Source: Actinomycetota bacterium (lineage in GTDB: Bacteria; Actinomycetota; Actinomycetes; Mycobacteriales; HKI-0501). From it: a stretch of 58,080 bases of DNA. Positions within the stretch are counted from its first letter, which is position 1. Each line of letters begins with the position of its first letter. The DNA is taken from NCBI GenBank assembly GCA_030840805.1, contig JAVEDU010000052.1:1-58080 (forward strand), written 5' to 3'. The translations under genes and the position numbers were made by a program. Under the pieces are notes generated by a model, which made no database searches, had not been told where the DNA came from, and saw nothing but the letters and a program-made list of their open reading frames with translations. Shown here piece after piece: positions 6,968 through 24,261 of this stretch.

Positions 6968-8169
6968 CAGGACTCCAGGGAAGGGATGCCGGCGGCGAAC
7001 GACAGCGCGGCCGGTGTGGTGGATCGCCGTTCGAGGGCGAGGGCGCCCGCGATCGCGCCGACCACGGTGGCGTTGGGCCCGAGCCGGGAGACGACTACCT
7101 CGGGTGCCGCGAACGTGGACCGGCCGACCAGCTCGGCGATGCGCGGGACGTACGGCTCCAGCGCCCGGCCGACGCTGCCGTCGAGGATCACCCGCTGGGG
7201 GTCGAGGACCGCGGTGATGTTCGCGATCGCCATCGCGACGTACTCGACGGTCTCGTCCAGGACGGCCGCCGCGACCGGGTCACCCGCGGCCGCCGCGGCG
7301 AAGACGTCGGCGCCGGTGGCGCCGGCGGGGTCCAGGACGGTCCCGGACGGATCCTGGGCGGCGAGCTCCCGGGCGCGGGCGGCGATGGCGGGGCCGGCGG
7401 CCCGGGACTCCAGGGCGGGGCCGCCCGTGCCCCGCCGCAGCTCGCCGGGGGCGCTGAGCAGGTAGCCGATCTCGCCCGCGGCGTTGTGCCGGCCGCGGAC
7501 GACCCGGCCGTCGAGGACGACGGCGCCGCCGATTCCGGTGCCCAGCGACAGCGTGACGAAGGAGGACGCGCCCCGTCCCTCGCCGCGCCACGCCTGCCCG
7601 AGCGCGGCGAGGTTCACGTCGTTGTCGACCGTGAACGGTTCCGCGAGCGCGGACTTCAGCACGCCGGTGAGGTCGAACCCGTCCCAGCCGAGGTTGGGCC
7701 CGGCGACCGCGAGGCCGGTGTCCGGGTCCAGCAGCGCGGGGATGCCGACGGCGACGGCGCGGACCGGCAGACCGGCCCGGTCGGCGGCGGCCCGCAGACT
7801 CGCGATGGACGCGAGCAGCGTGTCGGCGGCCTCCGGGTGCTCGAAGGTGCGGCGGTAGTCCTCGTCGAGGATCTCGCCGGCCAGGTCGGCCAGGGCGCCG
7901 TGGCATTTCGTGCCGCCGAGGTCGACGGCGAGGACCGCGCCGGCGCGAGCGTTGAACCGCAGGATGGCGCGGTTGCGGCCGGGGCCCTCGGTCTTGCCGG
8001 CGTACTCGGTGATCACATCATCGGCCAGCAGGCGCTTGACGATCCGGCTGACCGACGCCTGGGACAACCCCAGCCGCTCGCCGAGCTCGGGTCGGGTCAG
8101 CTCGCCGGCGGAACGGACGGCGTCCAGCACGAGGAACTCGTTGAGCTCCGTGACTCCTGTGGCGTCCAT
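6967..8169 (-). CDS. ROK family transcriptional regulator
   Basis: A 400-residue repressor-type protein. Residues 1-75 form a winged helix-turn-helix (RPELGERLGLSQASVSRIVKRL); residues 85-395 are a ROK sugar-kinase-like domain with the phosphate-binding DLGGTKCHGAL, the GIPALLDPDTG segment, and LSLGTGIGGAVV. The usual ROK zinc-binding Cys cluster is not seen: the region around GEIGYLLSAPGELRRGTGG lacks CxCGxxGC, so it may bind an effector without zinc or without kinase activity. The ATG at 8169 is chosen because AGAGAGAA stands before it and upstream codons do not look like protein. First gene of the cassette, likely autoregulating it in response to a sugar-like ligand. Confidence 0.88.
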   Translation of the reverse strand: MDATGVTELNEFLVLDAVRSAGELTRPELGERLGLSQASVSRIVKRLLADDVITEYAGKTEGPGRNRAILRFNARAGAVLAVDLGGTKCHGALADLAGEILDEDYRRTFEHPEAADTLLASIASLRAAADRAGLPVRAVAVGIPALLDPDTGLAVAGPNLGWDGFDLTGVLKSALAEPFTVDNDVNLAALGQAWRGEGRGASSFVTLSLGTGIGGAVVLDGRVVRGRHNAAGEIGYLLSAPGELRRGTGGPALESRAAGPAIAARARELAAQDPSGTVLDPAGATGADVFAAAAAGDPVAAAVLDETVEYVAMAIANITAVLDPQRVILDGSVGRALEPYVPRIAELVGRSTFAAPEVVVSRLGPNATVVGAIAGALALERRSTTPAALSFAAGIPSLES

Positions 8170-8291
8170 TCGTTTCTCTCTGGATGGAAGTGGTCCGGGG
8201 ACCGTAGCAGAACAGGTGACGCGTCCTGTACCCGTTGCCGCGGCGCGGCGCGGTGCACTAGACAAAGTGGGAGGAATCCGGGGGTAGTGCC

Positions 8292-8430
8292 GTGGCGATC
8301 ACCGTGGGCACCGACGGTCCGCTGACGGCCGTGACCCTCGACCGTTCGCAGGTCCGCAACGCCGCCGGCCTCCCGCGCGCGGCGGCCCGGGCCGACGCCG
8401 GTGGCCGGAGCCACCCGCCCGGCCCGGCCC
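8292..8430 (+). pseudogene. Remnant of an enoyl-CoA hydratase/isomerase gene (5' end only)
   Basis: A GTG preceded by GGAGG opens a frame whose first ~45 residues match the start of crotonase-family proteins: LTAVTLDRSQVRNA followed by the spacing NAxxxPxAAAxADA. Beyond that the reading frame, although open to 8690, no longer resembles a hydratase (no oxyanion-hole or GAGADL-like segment). It looks like the truncated start of a lost beta-oxidation or crotonase gene left upstream of the sigma factor gene. The rest of the 8170-8686 interval holds the divergent leader of the ROK gene and nothing else recognised. Confidence 0.4.
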
Positions 8431-8686
8431 GCGCCGGCGCCGACGTGGCACTGCGCAGCGGCCCGGTGAACCGGCGCGATGCGCCCGGCGGGACGCTCGC
8501 CGCGACCCGGAGCTCGCGTTCCCGGCGACCTGGCTGCGAACGGGCGGCACTCCGGCCGGGCCGTCCGCATCGCGGGCCGGCACCGAACTTGGGAGTTTTG
8601 ATGGTCGCTTCACCGAAACGGACCGCCGTCGCCGCGTTCGGCCCTAGTCTTGGCGGCACGAGGGGCACCTCTCCGCAGGGGCAGGC

Positions 8687-10189
8687 ATGAGGCATCGACG
8701 ACTCTCCGGTCATGGCGCCGCCGCGGATCCCGACGCGGAGTTGATCAGCGCCGTACGCGGCGGCGACTCGACGGCGTTCGGTGTCCTGTACCTGCGGCAC
8801 GTCGACGCGGCCCGCCGGCTGGCCCGCACGCTGGTGCGCGACCAGGCGGACGTGGACGATCTCGTCGCCGAGGCTTTCGCGAAGATCCTGCACGCCCTCC
8901 GCGGCGGACTCGGCCGGGACCTCGCCTTCCGCCCGTACCTGCTCACCAGCCTGCGGAACACGTTCTACGACCGGGTGCGGCGCGACAAGAGGGTGGACCT
9001 CACCGGGGACATCGCGTCGCACGACCCGGGCGTCCCGTTCGTGGACACCGCGCTGGAGGGGCTGGAACGGTCGCTCGCCGCCCGGGCCTTCGCCCGCCTG
9101 CCCGAACGCTGCCAGGTGGTGCTGTGGCACCTGGAGGTCGAGCGGGAGACGCCGGCCGAGGTGGGGCTGCTGCTGGGCCTGACCCCCAACGGGGTGTCCG
9201 CCCTCGCGTACCGGTCCCGCGAACGGCTGCGTCAGGCGTACCTCCAGGAGCACATCGCCGAACACTCCGGCGCCGACTGCGACTGGTCGGCGGAACGGCT
9301 CGGCGCCCACGTCCGGGGCGGCCTGAGTCGCCGCGACACCACCCGCGTGGAGGGGCATCTCGGCGGCTGCCCGCGCTGCCGGCTGCTGTACGTGGAGCTC
9401 GCCGAGGTCAACTCCAGCCTCCGTGCCGTGCTGGCGCCGATGGTGCTGGGCACCGCGGCGGCGGGGTACCTCCTCCAGCCCGCCAAGGCGGTGGCCGCTG
9501 TGGCCGCCGGAGCGGCGGGGACCGCGAGCGGCACGGCCGCGACGGGAACGGCGGGCTCCGGGGTCGTCGCGGGTGCCGCGGCGGGAACCGGGGTCGCCGC
9601 CGGTGGCGGGGCTGTCGCGGCCGGTGGCGCCGCCGCCACCGGGGCCGGGGCGACCGGAGTTGCCGCCACGGCAGCTCCCGCCCTCGCCGCGATGCAGGCC
9701 GGTGAGGGCGCGCTGGCCTGGGCGAGCGGCCTCCTCGTCCAGGTGCCGATCGGGGTCGCGGCGGGTTCCAAGGTCGGCGCGGCCGTCGTCGCCGTCGCGG
9801 TGAGCACGGCACTCGTCGCGGGCGCGGAGCCGGCGACCACGCTGCCGCCCACCGTCGTGGTGACCCCGCAACCGGCCGTCTCGTCCCCGGCGGTCCCGGC
9901 GGTCGCCCCCGGGATCCCCAGTCCGACCGCCGGGACCGTCGGCCCCAGCCCGGAGCCGTCCGGCCCGGCGCCGACCGGATCGAGCCCCGAGGCGGTGAGT
10001 CCGACCCCGAGCGGCTCCGGTACGCCCACCGCGTCGCCGACGACCTCCGGCGTGCCGGAGCGGGACGGGGTCACCCCCACCCCCCAGCCGACCCCCGCCG
10101 GTACGCCGACGGCGCCGCTGTTGCCCACGGACACGGACATCGTGCTGCCGTTCTCGACGTCCCCCACCGCGGAGCCGAGCCCCTCCTGA
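8687..10189 (+). CDS. ECF RNA polymerase sigma factor with zinc-finger and long C-terminal extension
   Basis: A 500-residue protein; ordinary ECF sigma factors have about 180-200. Residues ~20-95 are sigma region 2 (VDDLVAEAFAKILHAL), residues ~140-190 region 4 (ARLPERCQVVLWHLEVE and a helix-turn-helix). Residues ~205-240 form an anti-sigma-like zinc finger with HLGGCPRCRLLY (HxxxCxxC). A hydrophobic Ala/Val/Gly-rich part with possible membrane segments near residues 248-270 and 345-385 follows, then a Pro/Thr/Ser-rich tail of ~110 residues that could cross the cell wall. This is the build of sigma factors carrying their own anti-sigma-like membrane module. No separate anti-sigma gene is adjacent. 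ATG follows GGGGCAGG. Confidence 0.85.
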   Translation: MRHRRLSGHGAAADPDAELISAVRGGDSTAFGVLYLRHVDAARRLARTLVRDQADVDDLVAEAFAKILHALRGGLGRDLAFRPYLLTSLRNTFYDRVRRDKRVDLTGDIASHDPGVPFVDTALEGLERSLAARAFARLPERCQVVLWHLEVERETPAEVGLLLGLTPNGVSALAYRSRERLRQAYLQEHIAEHSGADCDWSAERLGAHVRGGLSRRDTTRVEGHLGGCPRCRLLYVELAEVNSSLRAVLAPMVLGTAAAGYLLQPAKAVAAVAAGAAGTASGTAATGTAGSGVVAGAAAGTGVAAGGGAVAAGGAAATGAGATGVAATAAPALAAMQAGEGALAWASGLLVQVPIGVAAGSKVGAAVVAVAVSTALVAGAEPATTLPPTVVVTPQPAVSSPAVPAVAPGIPSPTAGTVGPSPEPSGPAPTGSSPEAVSPTPSGSGTPTASPTTSGVPERDGVTPTPQPTPAGTPTAPLLPTDTDIVLPFSTSPTAEPSPS

Positions 10190-10261
10190 CCGGGAACTGT
10201 CGGTGACCGGTGCGAGACTTCTCCGCGTAGGGGGCTGGTTCCGGCAACGAGGAGTGGGTCC

Positions 10262-13200
10262 GTGCAGCGTGTCGAGGGTCGGCTGGTCCTCAGCCCGACA
10301 GACCTGACCAAGCACCTCGCGTGCGCGCACGCGACCACGCTCGACCTGGCGGTCGTGGCCGGTGCGGTCGTGGCGCCGCACGTGGCGGACGACGCGCTCA
10401 CGCTGATCTTCGAGCTGGGCCTCGAACACGAGCGGGCCTATCTGGCGTCGCTGCGGGCCGAGGGCCGCTCGATCACCGAGATCCCCACCGCGTTCGACGC
10501 GGACGGCCGGCGGCGCGCGGAGCAGCAGACGCTGGACGCGATGAGGTCCGGCGCCGACGTGGTCTACCAGGGCACCTTCTTCGACGGCTCCTGGGGCGGG
10601 CAGGCCGACTTCCTGCTGCGGGTGGACCGGCCGTCGCGCCTCGGTCCGTGGTCGTACGAGATCGCGGACACCAAGCTCGCGCGGCGGCTGAAGGTGCCGG
10701 CGCTGCTCCAGATGGCCGTGTACGCCGAGCGGCTGGAGCACCTGCAGGGCGTCGCACCCGAGGGCCTGTACGTGGTGACCGGCGACGGCGAGAACCGGCC
10801 CTGGCGGCTGGTGGACGTGGCGGCGTACGCCCGCCACGTCCGGGGGCGACTGCGGAGCTTCACCGAAACGCGGCCCGTCACGGAGCCGGTCCCCGTCACC
10901 CACTGCGGACAGTGCCGGTGGCTCGACCGCTGCGCGGCGCAGTGGCGGCGCGAGGACGACCTGTCGCTGGTGGCGTTCATGCGCGGCGACCACCGGGCGG
11001 CGCTGCGGGCCCACGGCATCACCACGCTCGCCGGGCTCGCCGCGTGCGCCCCGGACGACCTGCCGCGCGGCATCGGCCGGGCGTCGCGGGAGCGCCTGGT
11101 GCAGCAGGCCGCCGAGCAGCTGCGCGAACGCACGAGCGGGAAGCCGTCGTACCTCCTGCTCCCGCCGGTCCCGGGAACGGGCCTGCTCCGACTGCCGCCG
11201 CCCGATCAGGGTGACCTGTACCTCGACTTCGAGGGCGATCCGTACGCCGAGGGCGGGGAGGGCCGGGAGTACCTGGCCGGCGTCGGCGACCGCGGGGACG
11301 GCTTCATCGCGCTCTGGGCCCATGACCGGGACGCCGAACGGCAGCTGACCGCCGATCTGGTCGACCTGCTCCTGGCACGGTGGCGCGCCTACCCCGACAT
11401 GCACGTCTACCACTACGCGGCGTACGAGGTGACCGCGCTCAAGCGGCTCACCGCGCGGCACGGGGTGCGGGAGGCGGAGCTGGACCAGCTGCTGCGGGGC
11501 GAGCGGTTCGTCGACCTGTACGCCGTGGTCCGGCAGGGCCTGCGGATCAGCAAGCCGTCGTACTCGATCAAGAAGCTCGAGGCCTTCTACTGGCATGCGG
11601 AGCGCAACAAGGACGAGGACGTCGCCGACGCGATGGCCAGCGTGCTCGCCTACGAGCGGTGGCTCGTCGAGCGGGAGGGCGACACGCTCGCGCAGATCGA
11701 GGCGTACAACCGCGACGACGTCCGGTCCACCCATGCGCTCCAGACGTGGCTGGAGGGGCGCCGGGACGAGCTGGAGGACGAGCGGGGCGCGCCGGCCCGG
11801 CCGCAGGAGCAGAAGCCCGAGCCGGACCGCCCCCGGACCGAGGCGGAGCTGACGGAGCTGGAGCTCGTGGAGCGGCTCGCCGGCCACCCCCTGCTTGCCG
11901 ACCTGGTGCAGTGGCACCGCCGGGAGGCCCGCCCGGCCTGGTGGGACTACTACCGGCTGGGCGACCTCGACGAGGACGAGCTGGTGGACGACGGCACCGC
12001 GCTCGGCCCGCTCTCGACCCCCGAGCTGGTCGGCACCGACAAGCGCAGCAGGCTGTGGCGGTACACGTTCGCCCCGCAGGACACCCGGGTGCGCGTCGGC
12101 AAGACCGTGCACGACGTGGACGACCACGAGGCCGGCGGCACGGTGGTGGAGCTCGACGCGCTCGGTGGCACGGTGGTGGTGAAGCGGCAGGCGGAGCCGA
12201 AGTCGCCGCGGGCGTTCGGCCCGCCGGGGCCGATCGACGACAAGGTGCTCCGGGAGTCCGTCGCGGCGGCGGCGGAGGACCGGCTGGCGGGGCGGCCCGG
12301 GCTGGCGGGTGCGCTCCTGCACCGCCGGGCGCCCGCGGGGACGGCCGTGCGGCCGGGGGAGACGCCGGCGGACGCGGTGCTGCGGGTCGGCACGTCGCTC
12401 GACGGCACCGTGCTCGCCGTCCAGGGGCCGCCCGGCAGCGGAAAGACGACCGTCGGCGCGAAGCTGATCCGGGCTCTGCTCGATGCGGGCAAGACGGTCG
12501 GGGTCACCGCGACCTCGCACGCCGTGATCGGCCATCTCCTCGGCGCCGTCGGACGGCCCGCCCTGCACAAGTGCGACGAGGACCAGCACTCCGGTAACCC
12601 GGCCATCGTCCGGGCGGCCACCAACCCGGAGGTGGCCGCGGCGCTGGCGGACGGCAGCGCGCGGCTCGTGGGCGGCACGTCGTGGATGTGGGCGCGCGAG
12701 GAGATGGCGTCCGCCGTCGACGTGCTCGTGGTGGACGAGGCGGGCCAGTACTCCCTCGCCAACGCCGTCGCGGTGGCCCGGGGGGCGCGGTCGATGGTGC
12801 TGCTCGGCGATCCCCAGCAGCTGGCCCAGCCGTCCCGGGCGGAGCACCCCGGCGGCGCCGGCGCCTCGGTGCTGGAGCACCTGCTCGACGGGCACGACAC
12901 CGTGCCGCCGGACCGCGGCATCTTCCTCGACCGGTCGTGGCGGATGCATCCGGCGATCACCGAGTTCGTCTCCGACCTCGCGTACGAGGGGCGGCTGACG
13001 TCCGGCCCCGGCCGGGAGCGCCAGGAGGTGCGGGGTGCCGGATCGCTGTCGGGCAACGGGCTCCGGGTCGTGGAGGTGGCGCACGCCGGCAACGCCGCGA
13101 AGTCGCCCGAGGAGGCCCGGGCCGTCGCGGACCTGTGGACCTCGCTCCAGGGCGCGGAGTTCGTGGACAGCGACGGCGCGACCCGGCGGCTCGGCCCGGA

Positions 13201-13567
13201 CGACGTGCTCGTCGTCGCGCCGTACAACAACCAGGTCGCCGAGATCCTCGCGCTCCTCCCGGCCGGGGCGCGGGCCGGGACGGTGGACCGGTTCCAGGGC
13301 CAGGAGGCCCCCGTCGTCCTGTACTCGATGACCAGTTCGTCGGCCGCGGACGCGCCGCGCGGGGTGGACTTCCTGTACGACCTGCACCGGCTGAACGTGG
13401 CGGTCTCGCGCGCCCAGGCGCTCGCGGTGGTCGTGCTCAGCCCGGCCCTGCTCGACGCCGCCGTCCGGTCGCCCGAGCAGCTCCGCCGGGTGAACGCCCT
13501 GTGCCGGCTGGTCGAGCACGCGACCGGTTCGGGAAAACCGCCCCGGGATTCCGCACCTGCCGATTGA
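10262..13567 (+). CDS. TM0106-type RecB-like nuclease fused to RNase H-like domain and SF1 helicase
   Basis: A 1101-residue DNA-processing protein. Residues ~10-230 are a RecB/PD-(D/E)xK nuclease: GQADFLLRV, IADTKLA (the D-x-K of the active site) and QMAVYAERL. One cysteine near residue 21 plus CGQCRWLDRC near residue 217 can hold an Fe-S cluster, as in AddB/Cas4-like nucleases. Residues ~315-500 resemble an RNase H-like exonuclease (YLDFEGDPYAEGG). The C-terminal half is a superfamily 1 helicase: Walker A GPPGSGKTT near 721, Walker B VVDEAGQ near 823, DRFQGQEAP near 1015 and NVAVSRAQ. GTG start after GAGGAG. Role in DNA repair or defence is inferred; no biochemical function is known to me for this exact architecture. 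Confidence 0.85.
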   Translation: MQRVEGRLVLSPTDLTKHLACAHATTLDLAVVAGAVVAPHVADDALTLIFELGLEHERAYLASLRAEGRSITEIPTAFDADGRRRAEQQTLDAMRSGADVVYQGTFFDGSWGGQADFLLRVDRPSRLGPWSYEIADTKLARRLKVPALLQMAVYAERLEHLQGVAPEGLYVVTGDGENRPWRLVDVAAYARHVRGRLRSFTETRPVTEPVPVTHCGQCRWLDRCAAQWRREDDLSLVAFMRGDHRAALRAHGITTLAGLAACAPDDLPRGIGRASRERLVQQAAEQLRERTSGKPSYLLLPPVPGTGLLRLPPPDQGDLYLDFEGDPYAEGGEGREYLAGVGDRGDGFIALWAHDRDAERQLTADLVDLLLARWRAYPDMHVYHYAAYEVTALKRLTARHGVREAELDQLLRGERFVDLYAVVRQGLRISKPSYSIKKLEAFYWHAERNKDEDVADAMASVLAYERWLVEREGDTLAQIEAYNRDDVRSTHALQTWLEGRRDELEDERGAPARPQEQKPEPDRPRTEAELTELELVERLAGHPLLADLVQWHRREARPAWWDYYRLGDLDEDELVDDGTALGPLSTPELVGTDKRSRLWRYTFAPQDTRVRVGKTVHDVDDHEAGGTVVELDALGGTVVVKRQAEPKSPRAFGPPGPIDDKVLRESVAAAAEDRLAGRPGLAGALLHRRAPAGTAVRPGETPADAVLRVGTSLDGTVLAVQGPPGSGKTTVGAKLIRALLDAGKTVGVTATSHAVIGHLLGAVGRPALHKCDEDQHSGNPAIVRAATNPEVAAALADGSARLVGGTSWMWAREEMASAVDVLVVDEAGQYSLANAVAVARGARSMVLLGDPQQLAQPSRAEHPGGAGASVLEHLLDGHDTVPPDRGIFLDRSWRMHPAITEFVSDLAYEGRLTSGPGRERQEVRGAGSLSGNGLRVVEVAHAGNAAKSPEEARAVADLWTSLQGAEFVDSDGATRRLGPDDVLVVAPYNNQVAEILALLPAGARAGTVDRFQGQEAPVVLYSMTSSSAADAPRGVDFLYDLHRLNVAVSRAQALAVVVLSPALLDAAVRSPEQLRRVNALCRLVEHATGSGKPPRDSAPAD

Positions 13568-13602
13568 GGTGCGCGCGGCAAGCACTGCACGGGCGGAAGA
13601 AA

Positions 13603-14690
13603 TTGAACAGCTCGACCGCGCGAACCGCGACGACCCCTGCGTCGGTCACCGCATTGGTGGTGCCGGCGGGGCTCCTGACGCTGCCGCCGGTGGCGCAGGC
13701 GGCCACCAGTCCGACGGTCTCCAGCTTCGGCGCGGTCGCCGGGGATCCGGGCATCCTCCGGGTGGCCGCGACGTCGGACACCCCGATCGCCCCGGTCACC
13801 GCGATGCTGACGCCGTCGCAGGGCACCGGCGCGGCCGCGACCGTGACGACCTTCGAGCCGGTACCGGGCCAGGGTGGCGGGTGGCAGAGCGCGCGGGTCG
13901 TCCTGCCGGAGTACGACTTCTACCGGATGTCGGTCGACGTGGCGCACAGCGACGGTGACCACACCGTCACGTCGGCGCGTGACCAGGTCCTGTACTGGCC
14001 GACCGCGCCGACCGTCAGTGGCGTGATCGGACCGAACACCGTGGCCGCGGACACCACGTCGTGACGGCCGCCGGGGTGCTGAACCGGCTCGACCCGAAGA
14101 CCGGTGAGGTGGGCCCGTGGCCGGACCGGCAGGTGTCGGTCCGCGTGTCTTCCGACGTCGGCGAGCCGGTCCGCACCGGTCCCGACGGCCGGTACGAGGC
14201 CTCCGTCACGATCACGAAGGCGGACCGGCCCACCGGGGCGGTCGAGGTCAGCGCCCAGACCGACGTCGTGACGGCGGACGGCCGCCGCAAGGCCTTCCGG
14301 TACGTGGACTCCGGCACCGTCGCCATCACCCGTCGGCCACCCGGATCCGGCTCGACAGCACGACCGCGACGGCGAACGAACGCGCTCAGCCGACCGTCGG
14401 CGGCGTCGCCGGGTAGCTGTCCGGCGCGCGATGGAAGCCGCTCGTCGGCGCGAACGTCGTCTCCGACAACGGTGGCGCCTCCGGTTCGCCGACGTCGGCC
14501 ACCGGCGCGTTCTCGCTCAGCATCCCGGTGCCGCAGCGCGACGCCGTGCTGGACGTGCACCTGTCGAACTCCGATGCGCTGCCGGCACGGGCCACCGCGA
14601 GCGTGCAGGTCACCGTCGTGACCGAGACCCCGCTGAACTGGAACGAGTTCTGGGTCTCCGAGTACTCGGGCGTCTACATCGGCCCCGGCG
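13603..14690 (+). pseudogene. Broken secreted Ig-like/cell-surface protein
   Basis: Begins with a TTG after GGGCGGAAGAAA and a good signal peptide ending VAQA near residue 33. The protein then continues in three different frames. The first frame runs from 13603 to a TGA at 14064. The second runs from about 14061 to about 14330, with DPKTGEVGPWPDRQV. The third runs from about 14325 and is interrupted by a TAG at 14414-14416 inside VAG-stop-LSGARWKPL. The pieces read like one beta-rich extracellular protein, so at least two frameshifts and one nonsense mutation have inactivated it. Similarity fades near 14690, where a fragment of asnB on the other strand begins. Sequencing error is an alternative for individual shifts, but three lesions in one gene favour true decay. 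Confidence 0.7.
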
Positions 14691-14800
14691 GCGAACCCCT
14701 CGCCGTCCGGTCCGCGGTGCGCCTGCGCTGCCGCCATCCGGCGCAGCACGGGATCACCCGCCTCGCGGTCGAGTCCGACATACCCGGCGATGCCGCACAG
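14681..14800 (-). pseudogene. 5' fragment of an asparagine synthase (glutamine-hydrolysing) gene
   Basis: On the minus strand from 14800 the translation reads [15 protein letters not shown], then [16 protein letters not shown]. This is the start of the class II glutaminase domain of AsnB, with the catalytic cysteine at position 2 and the HRGPDGEG motif, about 36-40 codons in all. The initiator position is CTG, not ATG or GTG, although GGGGGA lies upstream. After GEGF the similarity ends abruptly and no downstream AsnB sequence is present. It is a gene fragment abutting the broken secreted protein gene, which suggests a rearrangement or deletion breakpoint near 14690. Confidence 0.65.
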
Positions 14801-15038
14801 GTACGGCGTCCCCCTGACTCCCCCTCGGCGGCCAGCGGACCTTGTGTTCCTGGGTAGGACAGCGAAGACCCGGCGCGACATCCGTTCGTGCCGGGACGTT
14901 CTCCAGCCGACGGTGCCCCAGCTCCGCAACCCCGCCTCGCGTGGCCGGGTCGCCGGACCCGACACTAGGGTGGGCCCCAGGTGCGCCGGGACGGCTGGTC
15001 GGCGGTGCTCGACTCGATCCCGAACGGAGCGGACCCTC

Positions 15039-16307
15039 GTGACGCTGTTCGGCCGAGGTTCCTGGGCCGAGGCTCGCCGCATCGCGGACGTGCTCCGCAA
15101 GGAGACGATCGGCGGGGTGCTGCTGCTCGCGGGCGCGGTGCTGGCCCTGGTGTGGGCCAACTCCCCGTGGGCGGACTCCTACGAGTCCCTCCGGCAGCTG
15201 CGGGTCGGCCCCGCCGCGCTGCACCTCGACCTCACCCTGTCGGCCTGGGCGTCGGACGGGCTGCTGGCGATCTTCTTCTTCGTCGCGGGGCTGGAACTGA
15301 AGCGCGAGTTCGTCGCGGGCGACCTGCGGGACCCGCGCCGCGCCGCCGTGCCGGTCGCGGCCGCGCTCGGCGGCGTCGCCGTCCCCGCGCTGGCGTACCT
15401 GCTCGTGGCCGGGGGAGCGGGTGGCGGTGCGGCCCGGGGCTGGGCGATCCCGACCGCCACCGACATCGCGTTCGCGCTGGCGGTGCTCGCCGTGATCGGG
15501 CGGAACCTGCCGCCGGCGCTGCGGACGTTCCTGCTGACGCTCGCGGTCGTCGACGACCTCGTCGCGATCGGCATCATCGCGCTCTTCTACACGCAGTCCC
15601 TGGCGCTCGCGCCGCTGCTCGCCGCGGTGGTCCCGCTGGCGGTCTTCACCGTGCTCGTCCAGCGGCGGGTGCGCTCGTGGTGGCTGCTGCTGCCGTTCGC
15701 CTTCGCGGTCTGGGCGCTGTTCCACGCCTCCGGTGTGCACGCGACCGTCGCCGGGGTGCTGCTCGGCTTCGCCGTGCCGGTGATCCGCCGCAGCCCCGGC
15801 GACGGACCCGGGCTGGCGGAGCATTTCGAGCACCGGTGGCGGCCGCTGTCCGCGGGCGTCGCCGTACCGGTCTTCGCCTTCTTCTCCGCGGGCGTCGCGG
15901 TCGGCGGCGTGAGCGGACTGGCGGACTCGCTCACCGACCGGGTGTCCCTCGGGATCGTGCTCGGGCTGCTCGTCGGCAAGACGGCCGGCGTCTTCACGGC
16001 CACCTACCTGGTCGCCAGGTTCACCCGGGCGCATCTCGACGAGGGCCTGGCGTGGATCGACGTGTTCGGCCTGGCGATCCTGGCGGGCATCGGGTTCACC
16101 GTGTCACTGCTCATCGGGGAACTGGCGTTCGGCGAGGGCAGCGCCCGCAACGACCACGTGAAGGTGGCCGTGCTCACCGGTTCGCTGGTGTCGGCGCTCG
16201 TGGCGAGCGTGGTGCTGCGGATGCGCGACCGGGCGTACCGGCGCATCCGGGCGCAGGAGACCGTCGATGCCGACCGGGACGGCATCCCGGACGTGTACCA
16301 GACCTGA
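15039..16307 (+). CDS. nhaA: Na+/H+ antiporter NhaA
   Basis: A 422-residue inner-membrane antiporter that exchanges sodium for protons, for pH and sodium homeostasis. Family marks: [19 protein letters not shown] near residue 30, [13 protein letters not shown] near residue 80, the [12 protein letters not shown] helix, and [16 protein letters not shown] with the paired Asp residues of the ion site. About 11-12 membrane segments are visible. The start is the GTG at 15039 with GGAG upstream; the frame is open further upstream, but that stretch is not NhaA-like. The C-terminus ends [12 protein letters not shown], a calcium-loop-like motif. Converges on the small membrane protein gene. Confidence 0.95.
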
Positions 16308-16381
16308 CCGGCCGATCCGCGGAGGCGACGCACGGGTCGGTGCGCCGGACGGGGTTCCGGGACGTGGCGCTCACCACCGTC

Positions 16382-16401
16382 GGCGGCCCACGGTGGCCGC
16401 C
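16382..16401. terminator. Weak hairpin between convergent nhaA and small membrane protein gene
   Basis: GGCGGCC and GGCCGCC arms flank a six-base loop in the 145-base gap between two convergent genes. There is no T tract. Such short GC hairpins are common by chance at this base composition, so this is only a candidate. Confidence 0.3.
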
Positions 16402-16452
16402 GGGCACGATCGTTGCGAGGACCCGCCACCGCACGCCGTCGCGTGGGCGGAC

Positions 16453-16707
16453 TCAGGCGCTGCCGAACAGGCTCGCGCTCAGCGTCGTGAGCCCGCTGCG
16501 CAACCCGTTGACGACCGTGACGGAGGTGTTCGCGAGGGGACCCGGCTGGCCCGCGATGGTGACCCCGAGGATCAGGGCCACCAGCACCGGGAAGATCGCG
16601 CCCCGGCTGCGCCAGCACATGATGATCAGCAGGATGAGGAGCACCGTTCCGAACATGGCGACGGTCATCGCAACCACTCCGTTCCCAGCGGTGGTCGGGT
16701 TGCTCAT
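16453..16707 (-). CDS. Small membrane protein of unknown function
   Basis: An 84-residue protein with two clear hydrophobic segments: residues ~12-31 (AMTVAMFGTVLLILLIIM) and residues ~37-52 (AIFPVLVALILGVTIAG). The loop between them is CWRSRG, and a polar tail follows. I do not recognise a family. Coding is supported by an excellent ribosome binding site (GAGAGGAGC immediately before the ATG) and by its own short interval between nhaA and the MHS transporter. Role unknown. Confidence 0.7.
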   Translation of the reverse strand: MSNPTTAGNGVVAMTVAMFGTVLLILLIIMCWRSRGAIFPVLVALILGVTIAGQPGPLANTSVTVVNGLRSGLTTLSASLFGSA

Positions 16708-16796
16708 GCTCCTCTCAGGATGCGCCGTACCGGGAACGGATCAAGTGGAAAGTCCGCCCTCCGCCGGAGCGGGCCCGACTGGGCCGCGAGGTCGGG

Positions 16797-18137
16797 TCAG
16801 GAGTCGGCGGTCTCCGCTGCCCGGGCCGGCGCCTCGTTCGGCATGGGCCCCTCCGGTGCCTGGCGCGGCATCAGCAGCAGCGCGGCCATCGCGATCACCG
16901 CGCACGCGACGATGTACCAGCTGATGTAGGTGCTCGACCCGGTCTTCTCCAGGATCGCGGCGGCGATCAGCGGCGCCGGGCCGCCCGCGATCAGGGACGC
17001 CCCGTGGTAGCCGAGGCCCGCGCCGCTGTACCGGACGTTGGGGCCGAACGACTCGGCGATCAGCGCCGCCTGCGGCCCGTACTGCATGTCGTGGAAGAGC
17101 AGGGACAGCAGGACGGCCAGCAGCACGAGGCCGGCGGACCTCGTGTTCAGCAGCCCGAAGTACGGGAACGCGTACAGCCCCGTGCAGACGATCCCGATGC
17201 CGTACATCCGCCGCCGGCCGATGACGTCGGACAGGTAGCCGAACAGCGGCACCGTGACCAGCCCCATGAGCGCACCGAGCATCGTGTAGTTCAGCACCTC
17301 GCTGCGGGGCAGGCCGAGGTGCTTGGTGCCGTACGTGAGCACGAACGTGATGAACAGGTAGAACGGCGCCTGCTCCGACATCCGCACCAGCGCCGAGGTG
17401 AGGACCGCGCGGGGCTGGCGGCGGATGACCTCCCACACCGGACGACGGGCGACCGCCCGCTGCGACTTGACGGCCGTGAACTCGGGGCTCTCCAGCACCC
17501 GCAGCCGAACGTACAGGCCGATCCCGACGAGCACGATGCTGACCAGGAACGGCACCCGCCAGCCCCAGGTCTCGAAGTCGGGACCGGCGACGCGGGACAT
17601 CAGCGCGATCATGCCGGTGGACGCGAGCAGCCCGAGCGGGACGCCGACCTGCGGCCAGCTCGCCATGAAGCCGCGGCGCTCCTTGCTGCCCCACTCCATC
17701 GACAGCAGGACCGAGCCGCCCCATTCCCCACCCACGCCGATGCCCTGGACGATGCGGAGCAGGATCAGGAGCACCGGCGCGGCCACGCCGATCGCGTCGA
17801 AGCCAGGGAGCAGGCCGATGAGGAACGTGCTGATCCCCATCATCACCAGCGTCGTGACGAGCGTGGCCTTGCGACCGACCCGGTCGCCGAAGTGGCCGAA
17901 GATCGCCGCTCCGATCGGGCGCGCGGCGAAGCCGACGAACTGCGTGCCGAACGCGGCGAGGACACCCGCGAACGGGGACGAGCCGGGGAAGAACAGCGCG
18001 GGGAACACCAGCGCTGCCGCGGTGCCGTAGAGGAAGAAGTCGTACCACTCGATCGCGGTGCCGACGGTCGCCGCGACGACCGCGCGACGGCGGTGGCGGC
18101 GTGCGTCCTGGTGGGACATGGTTCCCGTACTGGCCAC
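16797..18137 (-). CDS. MFS transporter, metabolite:H+ symporter (MHS) family
   Basis: A 446-residue, 12-segment membrane transporter. The N-terminal motif GTAIEWYDFFLYGTAAAL is characteristic of the MHS family (ShiA, KgtP, ProP and relatives); FGDRVGRKATL between segments 2 and 3 and RIVQGIGVGGEWGGSVLL in segment 5 are also family signatures. Members import organic acids, shikimate, osmolytes or aromatic acids by proton symport; substrate cannot be assigned here. GTG at 18137 is preceded by GGGAG; an internal ATG at 18119 is the alternative. Same strand as, and downstream of, the unknown secreted protein gene with a 93-base gap. Confidence 0.92.
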   Translation of the reverse strand: MASTGTMSHQDARRHRRRAVVAATVGTAIEWYDFFLYGTAAALVFPALFFPGSSPFAGVLAAFGTQFVGFAARPIGAAIFGHFGDRVGRKATLVTTLVMMGISTFLIGLLPGFDAIGVAAPVLLILLRIVQGIGVGGEWGGSVLLSMEWGSKERRGFMASWPQVGVPLGLLASTGMIALMSRVAGPDFETWGWRVPFLVSIVLVGIGLYVRLRVLESPEFTAVKSQRAVARRPVWEVIRRQPRAVLTSALVRMSEQAPFYLFITFVLTYGTKHLGLPRSEVLNYTMLGALMGLVTVPLFGYLSDVIGRRRMYGIGIVCTGLYAFPYFGLLNTRSAGLVLLAVLLSLLFHDMQYGPQAALIAESFGPNVRYSGAGLGYHGASLIAGGPAPLIAAAILEKTGSSTYISWYIVACAVIAMAALLLMPRQAPEGPMPNEAPARAAETADS

Positions 18138-18230
18138 AGCAGGCTCCCTAGTGGACGCAACACTCCGCCGCCGAATGGGTGAGGAGACTCCTCCGTCCGG
18201 GGGAGAGGCGTCAAGGCCCGCCGGCCACGG

Positions 18231-19616
18231 TCAGGTCGCGCGGCTCCACAGGGTCGCGGTGGGACTGTCCGCAGTGAGGTGGAGGTCCGCGGAGCGGACC
18301 GCCGCGAAGGACGGCCGGGGCAGCCAGGTGCGGTCCAGCAGGAACGCGCGCGAGAGGTCGGTCACCGTGACGGTCGCCCCGCTGTCGGTGTCTCCGGGGA
18401 CGCGGGTGACCGAGATCCGCTCGATGTCGCCGGAGCCGACGCCCTGCGGCAGCTCCACCGTGGTCGCCGCCGGGCCGTCGCGGGAGATCGACCAGCTCGC
18501 GATGCCGTGATCGGAGCGGTACGTCGCCGGGTCGCCGTGCAGCTTGACGACCACCGCGAGCCCGGGGCCGGACCCCGGCTGCCGCGCGGGCCCGGTGCTC
18601 CCGGCGATCTCGAGGTACAGGTAGTCCCGCTGGTCGCCCATCGCCGGAGTGGCCGGGTCGGACGGCTTCTCCACCCCGCCCTCGCGGACCATCTCGTCGG
18701 CCATCACCCGGTACGTCCACGGGTTCTGGTCCATCAGGTACTCGCGGGCCCGGTTTCCCGGGCGGCTGTCGTCCACGGGCAGGGCGAAGCGCATCGTCCC
18801 GTCCACGGTCTGGCACAGGTTGTTGTTGGTGGTGCAGGTCTGGAGCACCGGGTGGTCCCGCTCGTATCGGCCGGTGAACGGCACGGTCTGGTGGTCCGGC
18901 CCCTGGTAGAACGCCTGCCCGGGCACGCGGTGTCCGGCGGCGTCCACGACCACCGAGTAGGTCCACTCGATGTCGGTCGTGCGTCCCCACCGCGCCATCA
19001 GCGCGGGCCCGGTGGTGCCGCCGTCCTCGTTGCTCCACACCACCGAGTAGGTGATCCGGCGGCGGCCGGGGAGCGGACCGTCCCACACCTCGTGCCAGGC
19101 CAGCAGCGGGGTGTCGGTGCGAGCGTTCTGGGTCGGCCCGCCGAACGCGGGCAGGCTGCGGCCGAACAGCACCGGCGCGTGCTGCCGGATGATCGCCTCC
19201 ATCGTCCGGGGCGCGGCGACGGACATCCCGAGGTCGGTCAGCACCACGACCCGGGCGTGGGGTGAGCTGCGGTCGGCCGCGAGGCGGAAGCGCACCTGGT
19301 GCCGCCCGTGGCCGAGGCGGCCCAGGGCCACCCCGCGCGGGGTCGGGCGTCCGCTCATGACGACCAGGTCACCGGCGTACCGGCCGTCGACGTCGACCGA
19401 GACGACCGCGGACTCCCGGCCGGGGACGGCCCAGGAGATTCCGGGTGCCGCGGTGGTCAGGGTGAGCAGACCCTCGCCGCCGCCCGCGGTCACGGTGACC
19501 GTGACCGCGCGGTCCCGGGTCACGACGACACGCGTGTTGGCGACCGACGGGGTCACGGTGGAGAAGACGGACACGAGCGACACCAGGACGACGACGGCGA
19601 GCTGGTACCTGCGCAT
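18231..19616 (-). CDS. Secreted protein of unknown function
   Basis: A 461-residue protein with a typical Sec signal peptide (MRRYQLAVVVLVSLVSV, cleavage likely after PSVA near residue 26). The mature part is beta-rich. Between residues ~140 and 340 it has motifs HAPVLFGRSLPAFGG, DTPLLAWHEVWDG, YSVVWSNEDGGT and RYERDHPVLQTC plus a cysteine pair (TCTTNNNLC) that may form a disulphide. I recognise no enzyme family. The HAPVLFGR...YSVVWSNEDGG pattern suggests a conserved surface or binding protein found with other actinobacteria, but this is a guess. It is transcribed towards the MHS transporter. Confidence 0.75.
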   Translation of the reverse strand: MRRYQLAVVVLVSLVSVFSTVTPSVANTRVVVTRDRAVTVTVTAGGGEGLLTLTTAAPGISWAVPGRESAVVSVDVDGRYAGDLVVMSGRPTPRGVALGRLGHGRHQVRFRLAADRSSPHARVVVLTDLGMSVAAPRTMEAIIRQHAPVLFGRSLPAFGGPTQNARTDTPLLAWHEVWDGPLPGRRRITYSVVWSNEDGGTTGPALMARWGRTTDIEWTYSVVVDAAGHRVPGQAFYQGPDHQTVPFTGRYERDHPVLQTCTTNNNLCQTVDGTMRFALPVDDSRPGNRAREYLMDQNPWTYRVMADEMVREGGVEKPSDPATPAMGDQRDYLYLEIAGSTGPARQPGSGPGLAVVVKLHGDPATYRSDHGIASWSISRDGPAATTVELPQGVGSGDIERISVTRVPGDTDSGATVTVTDLSRAFLLDRTWLPRPSFAAVRSADLHLTADSPTATLWSRAT

Positions 19617-20129
19617 CCGGCGACCCCCTCTCGGTGGTTCCTGCCGATGGTGACGGCACGACGTGGCGGGTGTACCAACCCGAGGTGACGAACGGGGAAC
19701 CGGTTCGGTGCCCGTCTGCTCTGTCGATCACGGTTTCGTGCCGGACCTGTCGGCGTGTCGCGGCGACACCCGCACGATCGGCGGCGCGCCCGGCGGGTGA
19801 GGCGGTACCGGCGCCCGGCGAGCAGCAGCTGCCGAGGCCGGACGGCACGACCGACCACCGGGTACCGCTGGGGGACGCTCAAGGCCGTCGGCTGTCGCGG
19901 GACCGCGAGCATCGAGGCCACGGCAGCGGCGGCTGGCCGCTCGCCACGGTCACCGAGGAGCTGCGGGCCTCGGATGCGTACGTGCGGGACCGCCTGGCGC
20001 AGCTCTGACCGCGTCCGGCACCTTGCTCCGCGGACCCCGGGCTACTACACCGGAGCGTGTACCTCCCCGGGCGGTGCCTGCCGCGCCCTCCGTGTGGGAG
20101 CGTGTGCCGGGAAAATCGAGGGGGAAGCG
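19617..20129. other. Intergenic gap with no confident gene
   Basis: 513 bases between the divergently oriented secreted-protein gene and a GAF-ANTAR gene. A 124-codon frame on the plus strand (19634-20008) ends GGWPLATVTEELRASDAYV but has no clear ribosome binding site or recognisable family, so I do not call it. The perfect ten-base palindrome GAACCGGTTC lies near 19708. The final bases carry the GAF-ANTAR leader with GAGGGGGAAG. Confidence 0.4.
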
Positions 20130-20846
20130 ATGACGGAGACGAGCGCCGCGATCGGCGCCGACGCGCTGCTGGAGCTGGCGGCGATCGTGTACGGCGGGGA
20201 GACCCTGCAGTCCGTGCTGGACCGCGTCGTCGGGGTGGCCGTGCGTACCCTGCCGGGCGCGGACAGCGTGTCGGTGACGTTGATCCGCGACGAGGAGCCG
20301 TGCACCGCGGCGTTCTCCGGTCAGCTGGCGCTCGACGCGGACGAGATGCAGTACGAGCGCGGGTACGGGCCCTGCATGGACGCCGGCCGGGCGGGCGTGG
20401 TGCTGCGCGTCGACGACATGCGCACCGAGGAGCGCTGGCCGGACTACGCCGTCGCGGCGAGCGCCCACGGGGTGCTGAGCTCCCTCTCGGTGCCGCTGCC
20501 GATCCAGGACCGGTACATCGGCGCCCTGAACATCTACGCCACCGAGCCGGACGCGTTCGGGGAGAACGTGGTCGCGGCCGCGCAGCTCATCGCGTCGTAC
20601 GCGGCGGTCGCCGTGCACAACGCCCAGACGTTCACCCGGACCGCCGAGCTGGCGCAGGAGCTCACCAGGGCGATGGCGAGCCGCGCGGTCATCGAGCAGG
20701 CCAAGGGCATCGTCATGCACGAGCGCCGGTGTACCGCGGACGAGGCGTTCGCGCTGCTGACCCGGGTGTCCCAGCAGGCGAACATCAAGCTGCGGGACAT
20801 CGCCGCGGAGATGGTGGCGCAGACCGCCCGACCCTCCTCAGGGTGA
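20130..20846 (+). CDS. GAF and ANTAR domain-containing protein
   Basis: The third GAF-ANTAR regulator of the window, 238 residues. GAF domain at about residues 20-165, with the family motif YERGYGPCMDAGRAGVVL and SLSVPLPIQDRYIGALN. The ANTAR domain occupies the last ~60 residues, starting SRAVIEQAKGIVMHERR. The ATG at 20130 has GAGGGGGAAG upstream. The TGA stop codon is part of the left arm of a 54-base palindrome that separates it from the convergent IclR gene. Signal and RNA targets unknown. Confidence 0.9.
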   Translation: MTETSAAIGADALLELAAIVYGGETLQSVLDRVVGVAVRTLPGADSVSVTLIRDEEPCTAAFSGQLALDADEMQYERGYGPCMDAGRAGVVLRVDDMRTEERWPDYAVAASAHGVLSSLSVPLPIQDRYIGALNIYATEPDAFGENVVAAAQLIASYAAVAVHNAQTFTRTAELAQELTRAMASRAVIEQAKGIVMHERRCTADEAFALLTRVSQQANIKLRDIAAEMVAQTARPSSG

Positions 20847-20896
20847 TCACCACCGGTTTTTCGGGGCTCCAGCGCCGGAAAACCGGTGGTGATCAC
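20843..20896. repeat. Family B palindrome; bidirectional terminator candidate
   Basis: Two 22-base arms, GTGATCACCACCGGTTTTTC... and its near-perfect complement (one G-T mismatch), flank a ten-base loop. The left TGATCA contains the TGA stop of the GAF-ANTAR gene and the right one contains, on the other strand, the TGA stop of the IclR gene. The same GTGATCACCACCG arms recur at 37627 and 37727. A hairpin this long between convergent genes should terminate transcription in both directions. Confidence 0.85.
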
Positions 20897-21645
20897 GGGG
20901 CGGGGACAGGGGTGTCGGCCGCCGAGATGAGCGCCAGCTCGCCGTCGATCGCCGCCGCGGTGGCCCGCAGCGACGGCAGCACGCCGAGCAGGTCCTGACG
21001 CCGGAACCGGGCCGTCGGGGCGGCCACGGTGACCGCCGCGACCGCCCGCCCGTCGGCGTCGTGGACCGCGACGCCCAGGGCGACGACCCCGCGTTCGCTC
21101 TCCTCGACGTTCAGGCCGTAGCCGCGGCGGCGGGTGGTCGCCACGTCCCGCAGCAGTGCGTCCCGCGCCGGGTCCTCCTCGTAGAGCACCGACACGGTCG
21201 CGTCGGACAGCTCGGCGAGCAGCGCCTTCCCGCCGGAGGTGGTGTGGGCGGGCAGCACCATGCCCGTCCGCGAGCCGACCCGCAGCATCTGCGTTCCCTC
21301 CACCCCGTCGATGAACCGCACCTGGCGCCCCGCGCGCACCACCAGGTGGACGGTCTCGCCGATCTCGGCGTTGAGGCGTTCCAGCCGGTCGCGGACGAGC
21401 GGCGCCAGCCCCAGCACATACGCGGCCGATCCCAGCTCCGCGCAGGCCGGGCCCGGCCGGTACGCCCGGCCGCTGTCCTGCACGACGAAGCCGCGGTGCC
21501 GCAGCGAGGCCAGCAGGCGGTGCGCCGTGGAGTGGGCGACCCCGAGCTCCTCGGCCACCTGCGTCACGCGGAGCACGCCGTCCCGCCGCAGCAGGAGCAG
21601 CACCCGCAGCGCGTTGTCCACCGAGTCCAGCCCATCTTTCCGCAT
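20893..21645 (-). CDS. IclR family transcriptional regulator of the gentisate operon
   Basis: A 250-residue regulator: winged helix-turn-helix at residues ~8-65 (VTQVAEELGVAHSTAHRLLASL) and an IclR effector-binding domain beyond, with MVLPAHTTSGGKALLAEL near residue 130. It lies divergently from the gentisate dioxygenase gene with a 77-base gap, the usual position for the regulator of aromatic-acid catabolic operons. Likely ligand: gentisate or 3-hydroxybenzoate (inference). Its stop codon is inside the family B palindrome. Confidence 0.9.
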   Translation of the reverse strand: MRKDGLDSVDNALRVLLLLRRDGVLRVTQVAEELGVAHSTAHRLLASLRHRGFVVQDSGRAYRPGPACAELGSAAYVLGLAPLVRDRLERLNAEIGETVHLVVRAGRQVRFIDGVEGTQMLRVGSRTGMVLPAHTTSGGKALLAELSDATVSVLYEEDPARDALLRDVATTRRRGYGLNVEESERGVVALGVAVHDADGRAVAAVTVAAPTARFRRQDLLGVLPSLRATAAAIDGELALISAADTPVPAP

Positions 21646-21722
21646 GAAAGAACCCTAGGGCATTGCTCTGTCGCATGGCGGAACTCCGTCGTACGGTCCT
21701 GCCATCGACACGGAGGGACGCG

Positions 21723-22784
21723 ATGGACGAGGACGAGGCCCTGCGGCGGCTGTACGCCGACTTCGACGCCGCGGGCATGCAGCCGCTGTGGCGGGTCCGG
21801 GAGGGGCTGATGCCCGACCGGCCCACGCCCCGGGCCGTCCCGCACGCCTGGCACTGGAAGGACCTCTACCCGCTCGCGCGGCGCGCCGGTGACCTCGTAC
21901 CGGTCGGCCGCGGCGGCGAGCGTCGGGCGATCGCGCTCGGCAATCCCGGGCTGGGCGGCGAACCGTTCACCACGCCGACGCTGTGGGCGGCCGTGCAGTA
22001 CCTCGGCCCCCAGGAGGTGGCCCCCGACCACCGGCACTCACAGAGCGCGTTCCGTTTCGTGCTGGAGGGTGAGGGCGTGTGGACGGTCGTCGACGGCGAC
22101 CCCGTGGCGATGCGCCGCGGCGACCTGCTGCTGACGCCCGGGATGGCGTTCCACGGCCACCACAACACGCGCGACGCGCCGATGGCATGGCTCGACGGCC
22201 TCGACATCCCGATCGCGGGGTACCTCGACGCGCAGTTCTTCGAGTTCGGTCCCGACGACGTCGTGGACCGCTCGACGCCGGCCACGTCCCGGTCCGAACG
22301 CCTGTGGGGGCGACCCGGCCTGCGCCCGATCGGCGGTCCGGAGCCGAAGGCCAGTTCGCCGCTCTGCGCGTACCGCTGGGAGTTCACCGACGCGGCGTTG
22401 GCCGACCAGCTCGCGCTGGAGGCCGAGGGTCGTCCGTCCACGGTGGAACCCGGCCACGCGGCCGTGCGGTTCAGCAACCCCGCGACCGGCGGGGACGCCC
22501 TCGTGACGATGCGGACGGAGATGCACCGCCTCGCCGCCGGATGCACCACCACCGGCCGTCGTGAGGTCGGCTCGTCGGTGTGGCAGGTCTTCGACGGTGC
22601 CGGCGCGTTCGTGCTCGACGGCCACCGCACCGAGGTGCGGCGCGGTGACGTCGTCGCGGTGCCCTCGTGGTGCCACGTGGTGGTCGAGGCCGCCGAGCCG
22701 TTCGACCTGTTCCGCTTCTCGGACGCTCCGATCATCGAGCGCCTGAACCTCGCCCGCACCCAGCTCGACGGAGGCAACTCGTGA
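21723..22784 (+). CDS. Gentisate 1,2-dioxygenase
   Basis: A 353-residue bicupin, non-haem iron dioxygenase that opens the ring of gentisate to give maleylpyruvate. The first cupin has the iron ligands in APDHRHSQSAFRFVLEG (H103, H105) and GVWTVVDG; the second cupin lies at residues ~240-335 with QVFDGAGAFVLDG and PSWCHVVVE. Length fits the family (340-390). ATG at 21723 has GGAGGG nearby. First gene of a four-gene operon; its stop overlaps the next GTG start (GTGA). The three following enzymes complete the mycothiol-dependent gentisate route and the supply of gentisate from 3-hydroxybenzoate. Confidence 0.92.
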   Translation: MDEDEALRRLYADFDAAGMQPLWRVREGLMPDRPTPRAVPHAWHWKDLYPLARRAGDLVPVGRGGERRAIALGNPGLGGEPFTTPTLWAAVQYLGPQEVAPDHRHSQSAFRFVLEGEGVWTVVDGDPVAMRRGDLLLTPGMAFHGHHNTRDAPMAWLDGLDIPIAGYLDAQFFEFGPDDVVDRSTPATSRSERLWGRPGLRPIGGPEPKASSPLCAYRWEFTDAALADQLALEAEGRPSTVEPGHAAVRFSNPATGGDALVTMRTEMHRLAAGCTTTGRREVGSSVWQVFDGAGAFVLDGHRTEVRRGDVVAVPSWCHVVVEAAEPFDLFRFSDAPIIERLNLARTQLDGGNS

Positions 22785-23605
22785 AACTCGCCACCCTGCG
22801 CACCCCGGACGGCAATGTCGCGGTCCGGGTGGACGGTGACACCGGCATCGAGCTCGGCGTGACCGATGTCGGCCAACTGCTCGCGATGCCGGAGTGGGAC
22901 GCCCGGGTGCATGCCGCGGACGGCCCCCGCCACGCGATCGCCGAGGCCGACTTCGCCCCGGTCGTGCCGGCGCCGGGCAAGATCCTGTGCGTCGGGCTGA
23001 ACTACCGGAACCACATCCGCGAGATGGGACGGGACCTGCCCGAGTACCCGACGCTGTTCGCCAAGTTCACGCCGGCGCTGATCGGCGCGTACGACCCGAT
23101 CGTGCTGCCCGCGGTCTCCGACGCGATGGACTGGGAGGCCGAGCTGGCCGTCGTGATCGGACGGGCGGTCCGGCACGGCTCGGCCGAGGAGGCGCGCGCC
23201 GCGATCGCCGGGTATGCCGTCCTCAACGACGTCACCGCCCGCGACTGGCAGAACCGGACCCCGCAGTGGCTGCAGGGCAAGACGTTCGAGGGCACCACGC
23301 CGTTCGGACCGTACCTCGTCACCCCGGACGAGGCCGGCGAGGGGCTCGCGATCGGCTGCGACGTCGACGGCGAACAGATGCAGGACAGTGACACGGCGGA
23401 CCTCGTCTTCGACCCGGTCGAGCTGATCCGGTACATCTCCACGATCCTCACGCTCTCGCCGGGCGACGTCATCGCCACGGGTACGCCGGGCGGCGTGGGC
23501 CACGCCCGCGACCCCAAGCGGTACCTGCGGGACGGCGCCGTGCTCACCACCCGCATCGAGGGGCTGGGCGAGTGCCGCAACCCGTGCCGGTCGGAGAAGC
23601 CGTGA
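22781..23605 (+). CDS. Fumarylpyruvate hydrolase (fumarylacetoacetate hydrolase family)
   Basis: A 274-residue cytoplasmic hydrolase expected to split fumarylpyruvate into fumarate and pyruvate, the last step of the gentisate pathway. The FAH fold is shown by ILCVGLNYRNHIREMG near residue 67, the metal-binding DWEAELAVVIG near residue 112, and the C-terminal GDVIATGTPGGVG. The GTG start at 22781 overlaps the dioxygenase stop by four bases and has GGAGG upstream. The FAH family also contains other 2-oxo acid hydrolases; the assignment rests on the operon context. Confidence 0.9.
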   Translation: MKLATLRTPDGNVAVRVDGDTGIELGVTDVGQLLAMPEWDARVHAADGPRHAIAEADFAPVVPAPGKILCVGLNYRNHIREMGRDLPEYPTLFAKFTPALIGAYDPIVLPAVSDAMDWEAELAVVIGRAVRHGSAEEARAAIAGYAVLNDVTARDWQNRTPQWLQGKTFEGTTPFGPYLVTPDEAGEGLAIGCDVDGEQMQDSDTADLVFDPVELIRYISTILTLSPGDVIATGTPGGVGHARDPKRYLRDGAVLTTRIEGLGECRNPCRSEKP

Positions 23606-24261
23606 GGAGGTGGCTCACCGGCGGTGAGCGGTTCTTCCTGGCCCGGATCCCGGCCGACCTGACGGCCCCGTCGCTGCTCCCGGGGTGGACCCGCGCCCAT
23701 GTCGTGGCGCACCTGGTCGGCAGCTGTGAGGCACTGGGGAACCTGCTGCACTGGGCGCGTACCGGGGTCGAGACGCCGATGTACGCGAGCGTCGAGGTTC
23801 GCGCCGCCGACATCGAGCGCCGCGCCGCGCTCCCTGCCGCCGAGCTGACCGCCGCCGCGACGACGGGCTCCGAGCGGCTCCTCGCCGCGGTCGACGCGAT
23901 GCCCGCCGGGGCCTGGGACGCGACCGTCCGGACGATCCAGGGCCGGCCGGTCCCCGCGTCGGAGGTGCTCTGGATGCGGAGCCGGGAGACCTGGATCCAC
24001 GCGGTGGACCTCGCCGCCGGGGCCGGTTTCGGCGACCTCCCGGCGGAGCTGACCGACGCGCTGCTCACCGAGATCGCCGCCCGCAACGACGCGAACGACC
24101 AGTGCCCCGGCGTGACGCTGGCGCCGTCCGACCGGGACCGGACCTGGGAGTTCGGGCCCGGCGACCGCCAGGCCGTCCGGGGTACGGCGGGCGAGCTCTG
24201 CGGCTGGATGCTGGGGCGGCCGTCCACGGTGGACGGTCCCGTGCTGCCGAGGTGGCTGTGA
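23602..24261 (+). CDS. Mycothiol-dependent maleylpyruvate isomerase
   Basis: About 219 residues, DinB-like fold. It isomerises maleylpyruvate to fumarylpyruvate with mycothiol as cofactor in actinobacteria. The N-terminal PSLLPGWTRAHVVAHLVG and the later RSRETWIHAVDLAAG supply the His, Glu and His metal ligands typical of this family. I take the GTG at 23602 as start because GGAGAAG precedes it and it makes the same four-base GTGA overlap as its neighbours; a GTG ten codons upstream (23572) is the alternative. Third gene of the operon. The mycothiol dependence places the organism among the Actinomycetota. Confidence 0.88.
   Translation: MRRWLTGGERFFLARIPADLTAPSLLPGWTRAHVVAHLVGSCEALGNLLHWARTGVETPMYASVEVRAADIERRAALPAAELTAAATTGSERLLAAVDAMPAGAWDATVRTIQGRPVPASEVLWMRSRETWIHAVDLAAGAGFGDLPAELTDALLTEIAARNDANDQCPGVTLAPSDRDRTWEFGPGDRQAVRGTAGELCGWMLGRPSTVDGPVLPRWL

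Follow-up and report, generated by a model that had tools for sequence, protein, structure and literature searches.

The question raised by this locus is what a short minus-strand stretch resembling the beginning of a glutamine-hydrolysing asparagine synthase (AsnB) represents: a relic of a gene that once stood there, a partial copy of another gene of the same genome, a product of the assembly process, or something still in use. The window, i.e., the whole stretch of DNA analyzed (58,080 nucleotides), is at the same time a complete contig of a 4.46-Mb assembly that consists of 111 contigs and is estimated to be 95.18% complete. We consider it probable that the stretch (the “stub” hereafter) is what remains, no longer functional, of a formerly complete asnB-type gene, which was cut by a deletion or rearrangement and left lying against a broken gene of the plus strand. 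The features involved are collected in Table 1.

Table 1. Features at and around the asnB-like stub (positions within the window).
Feature	Position	Strand	Remarks
Protein of 1101 residues with RNase_H_2 and AAA helicase domains	10262-13567	+	Domains from Pfam
First open piece, probable secreted-protein pseudogene	13603-14061	+	Third-position G+C 92% (count begun two bases upstream); TTG start and signal peptide guessed by eye
Second open piece, other frame	14061-14330	+	Third-position G+C 97% (over 14061-14324)
Third open piece, third frame	14340-14690	+	TAG at 14414-14416; third-position G+C 94% (over 14417-14686); left end approximate
Inferred junction	14678-14696		End of AsnB similarity; composition not decisive
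asnB N-terminal remnant	14681-14800	-	Good match over 36 residues (14693-14800); may extend to AAG at 14681
CTG at the start position	14798-14800	-	Five relatives in the order: ATG (4), GTG (1)
AGGGGGA, resembling a ribosome-binding site	14809-14815	-	8 bases before CTG; spotted by eye; carries little weight in G+C-rich DNA
Intact nhaA, Na+/H+ antiporter (PF06965)	15042-16307	+	Divergent from the remnant

Read from 14800 down to 14693, the minus strand encodes 36 residues of an AsnB-type N-terminus (LCGIAGYVG…HRGPDGEGF), and the same frame followed to 14681 adds AAG, giving 39 residues, with retention of both the HRGPDG motif and the cysteine that immediately follows the start position (Cys2). 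When 56 residues were submitted to the NCBIfam model TIGR01536 (asparagine synthase, glutamine-hydrolysing), residues 2-44 matched positions 1-45 of the 517 in the profile with an E-value of 1.2e-5, although the 24.5 bits reached are far below the curated cut-off of 267.1 bits and the complete glutaminase and synthetase domains are absent; Pfam-A returned no family with E <= 1. A profile made from seven AsnB N-termini, the stub itself being left out, gave it 58.3 bits, as compared to 6.9 bits for the next-best place in the window and 13.2 bits for the best of 60 dinucleotide-preserving shuffles, which rules out chance similarity. The sequence-only reading had already proposed an asnB N-terminal fragment on the minus strand, and both profiles, together with a close relative found in another genome, bear it out.

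That relative comes from a sample of 397 genomes of the order, only 6 of which (own genome included) match the stub at E <= 1e-8. The five other loci show 72, 69, 67, 64 and 57% identity, the best of them over 36/36 residues with an E-value of 2.4e-13, and one of the two other genomes of the same family has a 57% relative at a different locus (none other of the same genus being among the genomes compared). The one relative with GTG before the cysteine (L092) is truncated by its contig edge, whereas the four others extend well past the point where the stub breaks off: their open frames span 641, 926, 946 and 644 residues, they pass TIGR01536 with 386-391 bits on the stretch given, and their mutual alignments cover 618-912 residues at 60-64% identity. 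The stub thus shares its first 36 residues, Cys2 and HRGPDG with an AsnB that is sporadic in the order, but differs from it in the CTG at its start position and in lacking the rest of the glutaminase domain as well as the synthetase domain. Plasmid and phage records provided no lead: at E 0.1, the stub had matches in 107 of the 72,556 plasmid entries and in a single one of the 50,697 phage entries, with 60.5% as the best identity, and 15 of the 20 plasmid matches listed (out of the 107) were annotated as asnB.

The same reading had pointed to a CTG where the start codon should be, and this holds, given that all five relatives use one of the two usual start codons before the catalytic cysteine. 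Codon usage within the stub deviates as well, its third-position G+C being 83% as compared to 96% in both the helicase gene (10262-13564) and nhaA (15042-16304); A or T occupies the third position in 6 of its 36 codons (P 0.003 if 4% is expected), and relaxed constraint and foreign origin are both compatible with that. Should the stub still be in use, as a short peptide or a leader read from the CTG or from an upstream start, the AGGGGGA ahead of it and a frame that stays open for 261 residues would fit, but past about residue 40 this frame runs antisense to a strong plus-strand codon signal, and an amidotransferase of the AsnB kind requires its entire glutaminase domain; we therefore regard such a use as very improbable. 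Still less credence is given to the narrower version, in which reading from the CTG would still yield a leader or small product that has its own role and would have been kept, since Cys2 and HRGPDG are intact.

As for where the similarity stops, intact relatives continue past GPDGEGF with a short variable stretch and then a GLAHRRLAVID-like block, which is missing after the stub, so the abrupt end noticed at first sight is genuine. The AsnB similarity breaks off between 14693 and about 14681: the AAG following the phenylalanine is common to the stub and L092 and partly to L093, while in tblastn with correctly oriented relatives the alignment stops at 14696 for L089 and at 14678 for L093, and the one with L091 extends to 14465 at 39% identity overall. 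A deletion or recombination junction near 14690 had also been suggested, and of this the position is sustained by the end of the similarity, whereas a deletion, an inversion, an insertion, arrival as a fragment or a mis-join of the assembly could each account for it, and base composition supplies no independent proof. A change-point fit on codon-phase G+C was carried out with three sets of right-hand parameters, two of which agree on 14681: the hand-set values (positions up to 14759 lying within 2 log units) and the stub's own values (14667-14696 and 14782 being possible as well). Because the helicase gene's values move the change point to 14781, it is unusable as independent evidence, and the junction is placed by similarity alone, composition being unreliable for placing it. 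The longest inverted repeat nearby (14389-14415/14781-14807; 27 bases, 78%) touches the start of the stub, but 28 of 30 shuffled versions of the region contained one that was as good or better, and it was dismissed as chance.

A partial duplicate of an asnB located elsewhere in the host would be another source of such a fragment. The host does carry other AsnB-like genes: searched with the protein of the closest relative (L090), its genome yields four loci at 32-36% identity in addition to the stub itself (68% over residues 1-38), and three of these four pass the TIGR01536 cut-off with 455-497 bits on the stretch given, while the fourth (213 residues given) stays under it. For the 36 residues, the next-best place is only 53% identical over 35 residues (E 5.5e-4), and 13 other matches listed have E-values of 0.149 or worse, with the short ones of higher identity (up to 63% over 19 residues, E 5.4) being taken as chance. 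With no close remainder in an assembly of this completeness, a recent partial duplication of a host asnB is ruled out, and the check for a full-length counterpart that had been proposed along with the initial observation came out negative. The fragmented state of the assembly does leave room for the rest of the gene to be unassembled, in which case unrelated pieces might have been joined at about 14690 and the real genome would possess a complete asnB. Against such a mis-join stand the stub's own signs of decay (the CTG and the lower third-position G+C), the failure of the search with the L090 protein to find any remainder of the stub's AsnB type in the assembly, and a steady G+C of 0.71-0.75 in each 300-base step from 13400 to 15199, and we deem it unlikely. 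The matches of the two flanking genes were uninformative in this respect: the helicase protein has matches in 8/21 genomes and NhaA in 17/21 (own genome included in both), neither has its best match in the same family, and the helicase protein gave no match at E 1e-30 in the two other same-family genomes.

On the plus strand, the region between the helicase gene and the stub (13603-14690) seems to be a second broken gene, the coding-like signal of which changes frame at about 14061 and again at about 14330-14340, is interrupted by a TAG, and finally runs into the stub. Because no homologue was found in the other sampled genomes, this likely status is derived from the codon signal: at E 1e-5, the first piece (against 397 genomes of the order) and the third piece (against 394 genomes of the class) matched only the window, with limited first-look candidates scored per genome in both cases, and elsewhere in its own genome the third piece found nothing better than E 0.2. 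None of the three pieces had a Pfam match above the cut-off; the first had no family at E <= 1, while the second (E 0.14) and the third (E 0.085, the best) remained sub-threshold. The “secreted” or “Ig-like” character of these pieces is a by-eye impression.

The opposite side of the stub is occupied by nhaA, and out of 547 nhaA loci found in named genomes, 80 were kept for comparison. Eight queries from the own genome and the order (AsnB-like proteins and the GlmS-like L006) revealed no AsnB at E 1e-10 in these 80 loci, 14 of which are short of 8 kb upstream (4 of these even of 600 bases), so that a neighbour could escape notice there; a conserved asnB-nhaA pair is hence unsupported elsewhere. 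The 36 residues of the stub had a single weak match there (L058, E 0.007), which falls within the nhaA match and was taken as chance, the three plus-strand pieces had none at E 0.05, and besides frames in or antisense to nhaA, the genes of the window shared only weak matches with these loci. The lack of an asnB next to nhaA, along with the sporadic matches in the order and the lower third-position G+C, would also suit a stub that arrived already truncated (e.g., by lateral transfer) and was never whole here, though it would be a dead remnant either way. The window contains no tRNA, no transposase was seen by eye among the open reading frames of 8000-24000 or by Pfam in ten neighbouring genes, and in one of the two other genomes of the family a relative resides elsewhere, all of which speaks against arrival as a fragment; we deem it unlikely as well, if slightly more plausible than a mis-join.

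The preferred explanation, a gene truncated in place, is in agreement with the significant AsnB similarity being confined to the N-terminus. A whole asnB-type gene would have stood here divergently from nhaA, an arrangement that was not found in the genomes compared, until a deletion or rearrangement took everything beyond roughly codons 36-40, so that the stub came to abut the 3' part of the broken plus-strand gene. Later decay may then have turned an ATG or GTG into CTG and partially eroded the codon bias, with the plus-strand neighbour drifting too, although this order of events is itself our inference. Most likely, the stub is a dead fragment, real but ordinary. Like the usual pseudogene remnants of bacteria, for which tools such as Pseudofinder (PMC9336565) search, the stub is truncated, short, devoid of its start and located beside a probable broken gene, and nothing notable sets it apart from them, save that two unrelated remnants face each other here. 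An exact-phrase full-text search for a published asnB pseudogene gave, going by titles and the opening lines of abstracts, only human studies. Taken as such, the stub suggests that one more AsnB, of the type sporadic in the order, was formerly present in the lineage or reached it in part; the significance of the stub extends little beyond annotation, in which the stretch between the helicase gene and nhaA should be depicted as harboring two probable dead genes, and the label of a functional asnB should be withheld from the stub.

Two further observations concern the AsnB loci of other genomes. The AsnB frames at L104 8190-10970 (926 residues) and L106 8062-10902 (946 residues) are about 300 residues longer than those of L103 and L107 (641 and 644 residues), and when genes were called in L103-L107 and compared at E 1e-15, the only pairs shared were asnB itself and a single pair at 31% identity (L104 and L106). 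In L105, from another genome of the order, an AsnB N-terminus that begins with GTG and is truncated at the contig edge (1-165) is divergent from a calcium/sodium antiporter-like gene (727-1755; TIGR00367 73 bits, below the cut-off of 179.65), which is reminiscent of the stub beside nhaA, but the antiporter families differ and the likeness is probably a coincidence.
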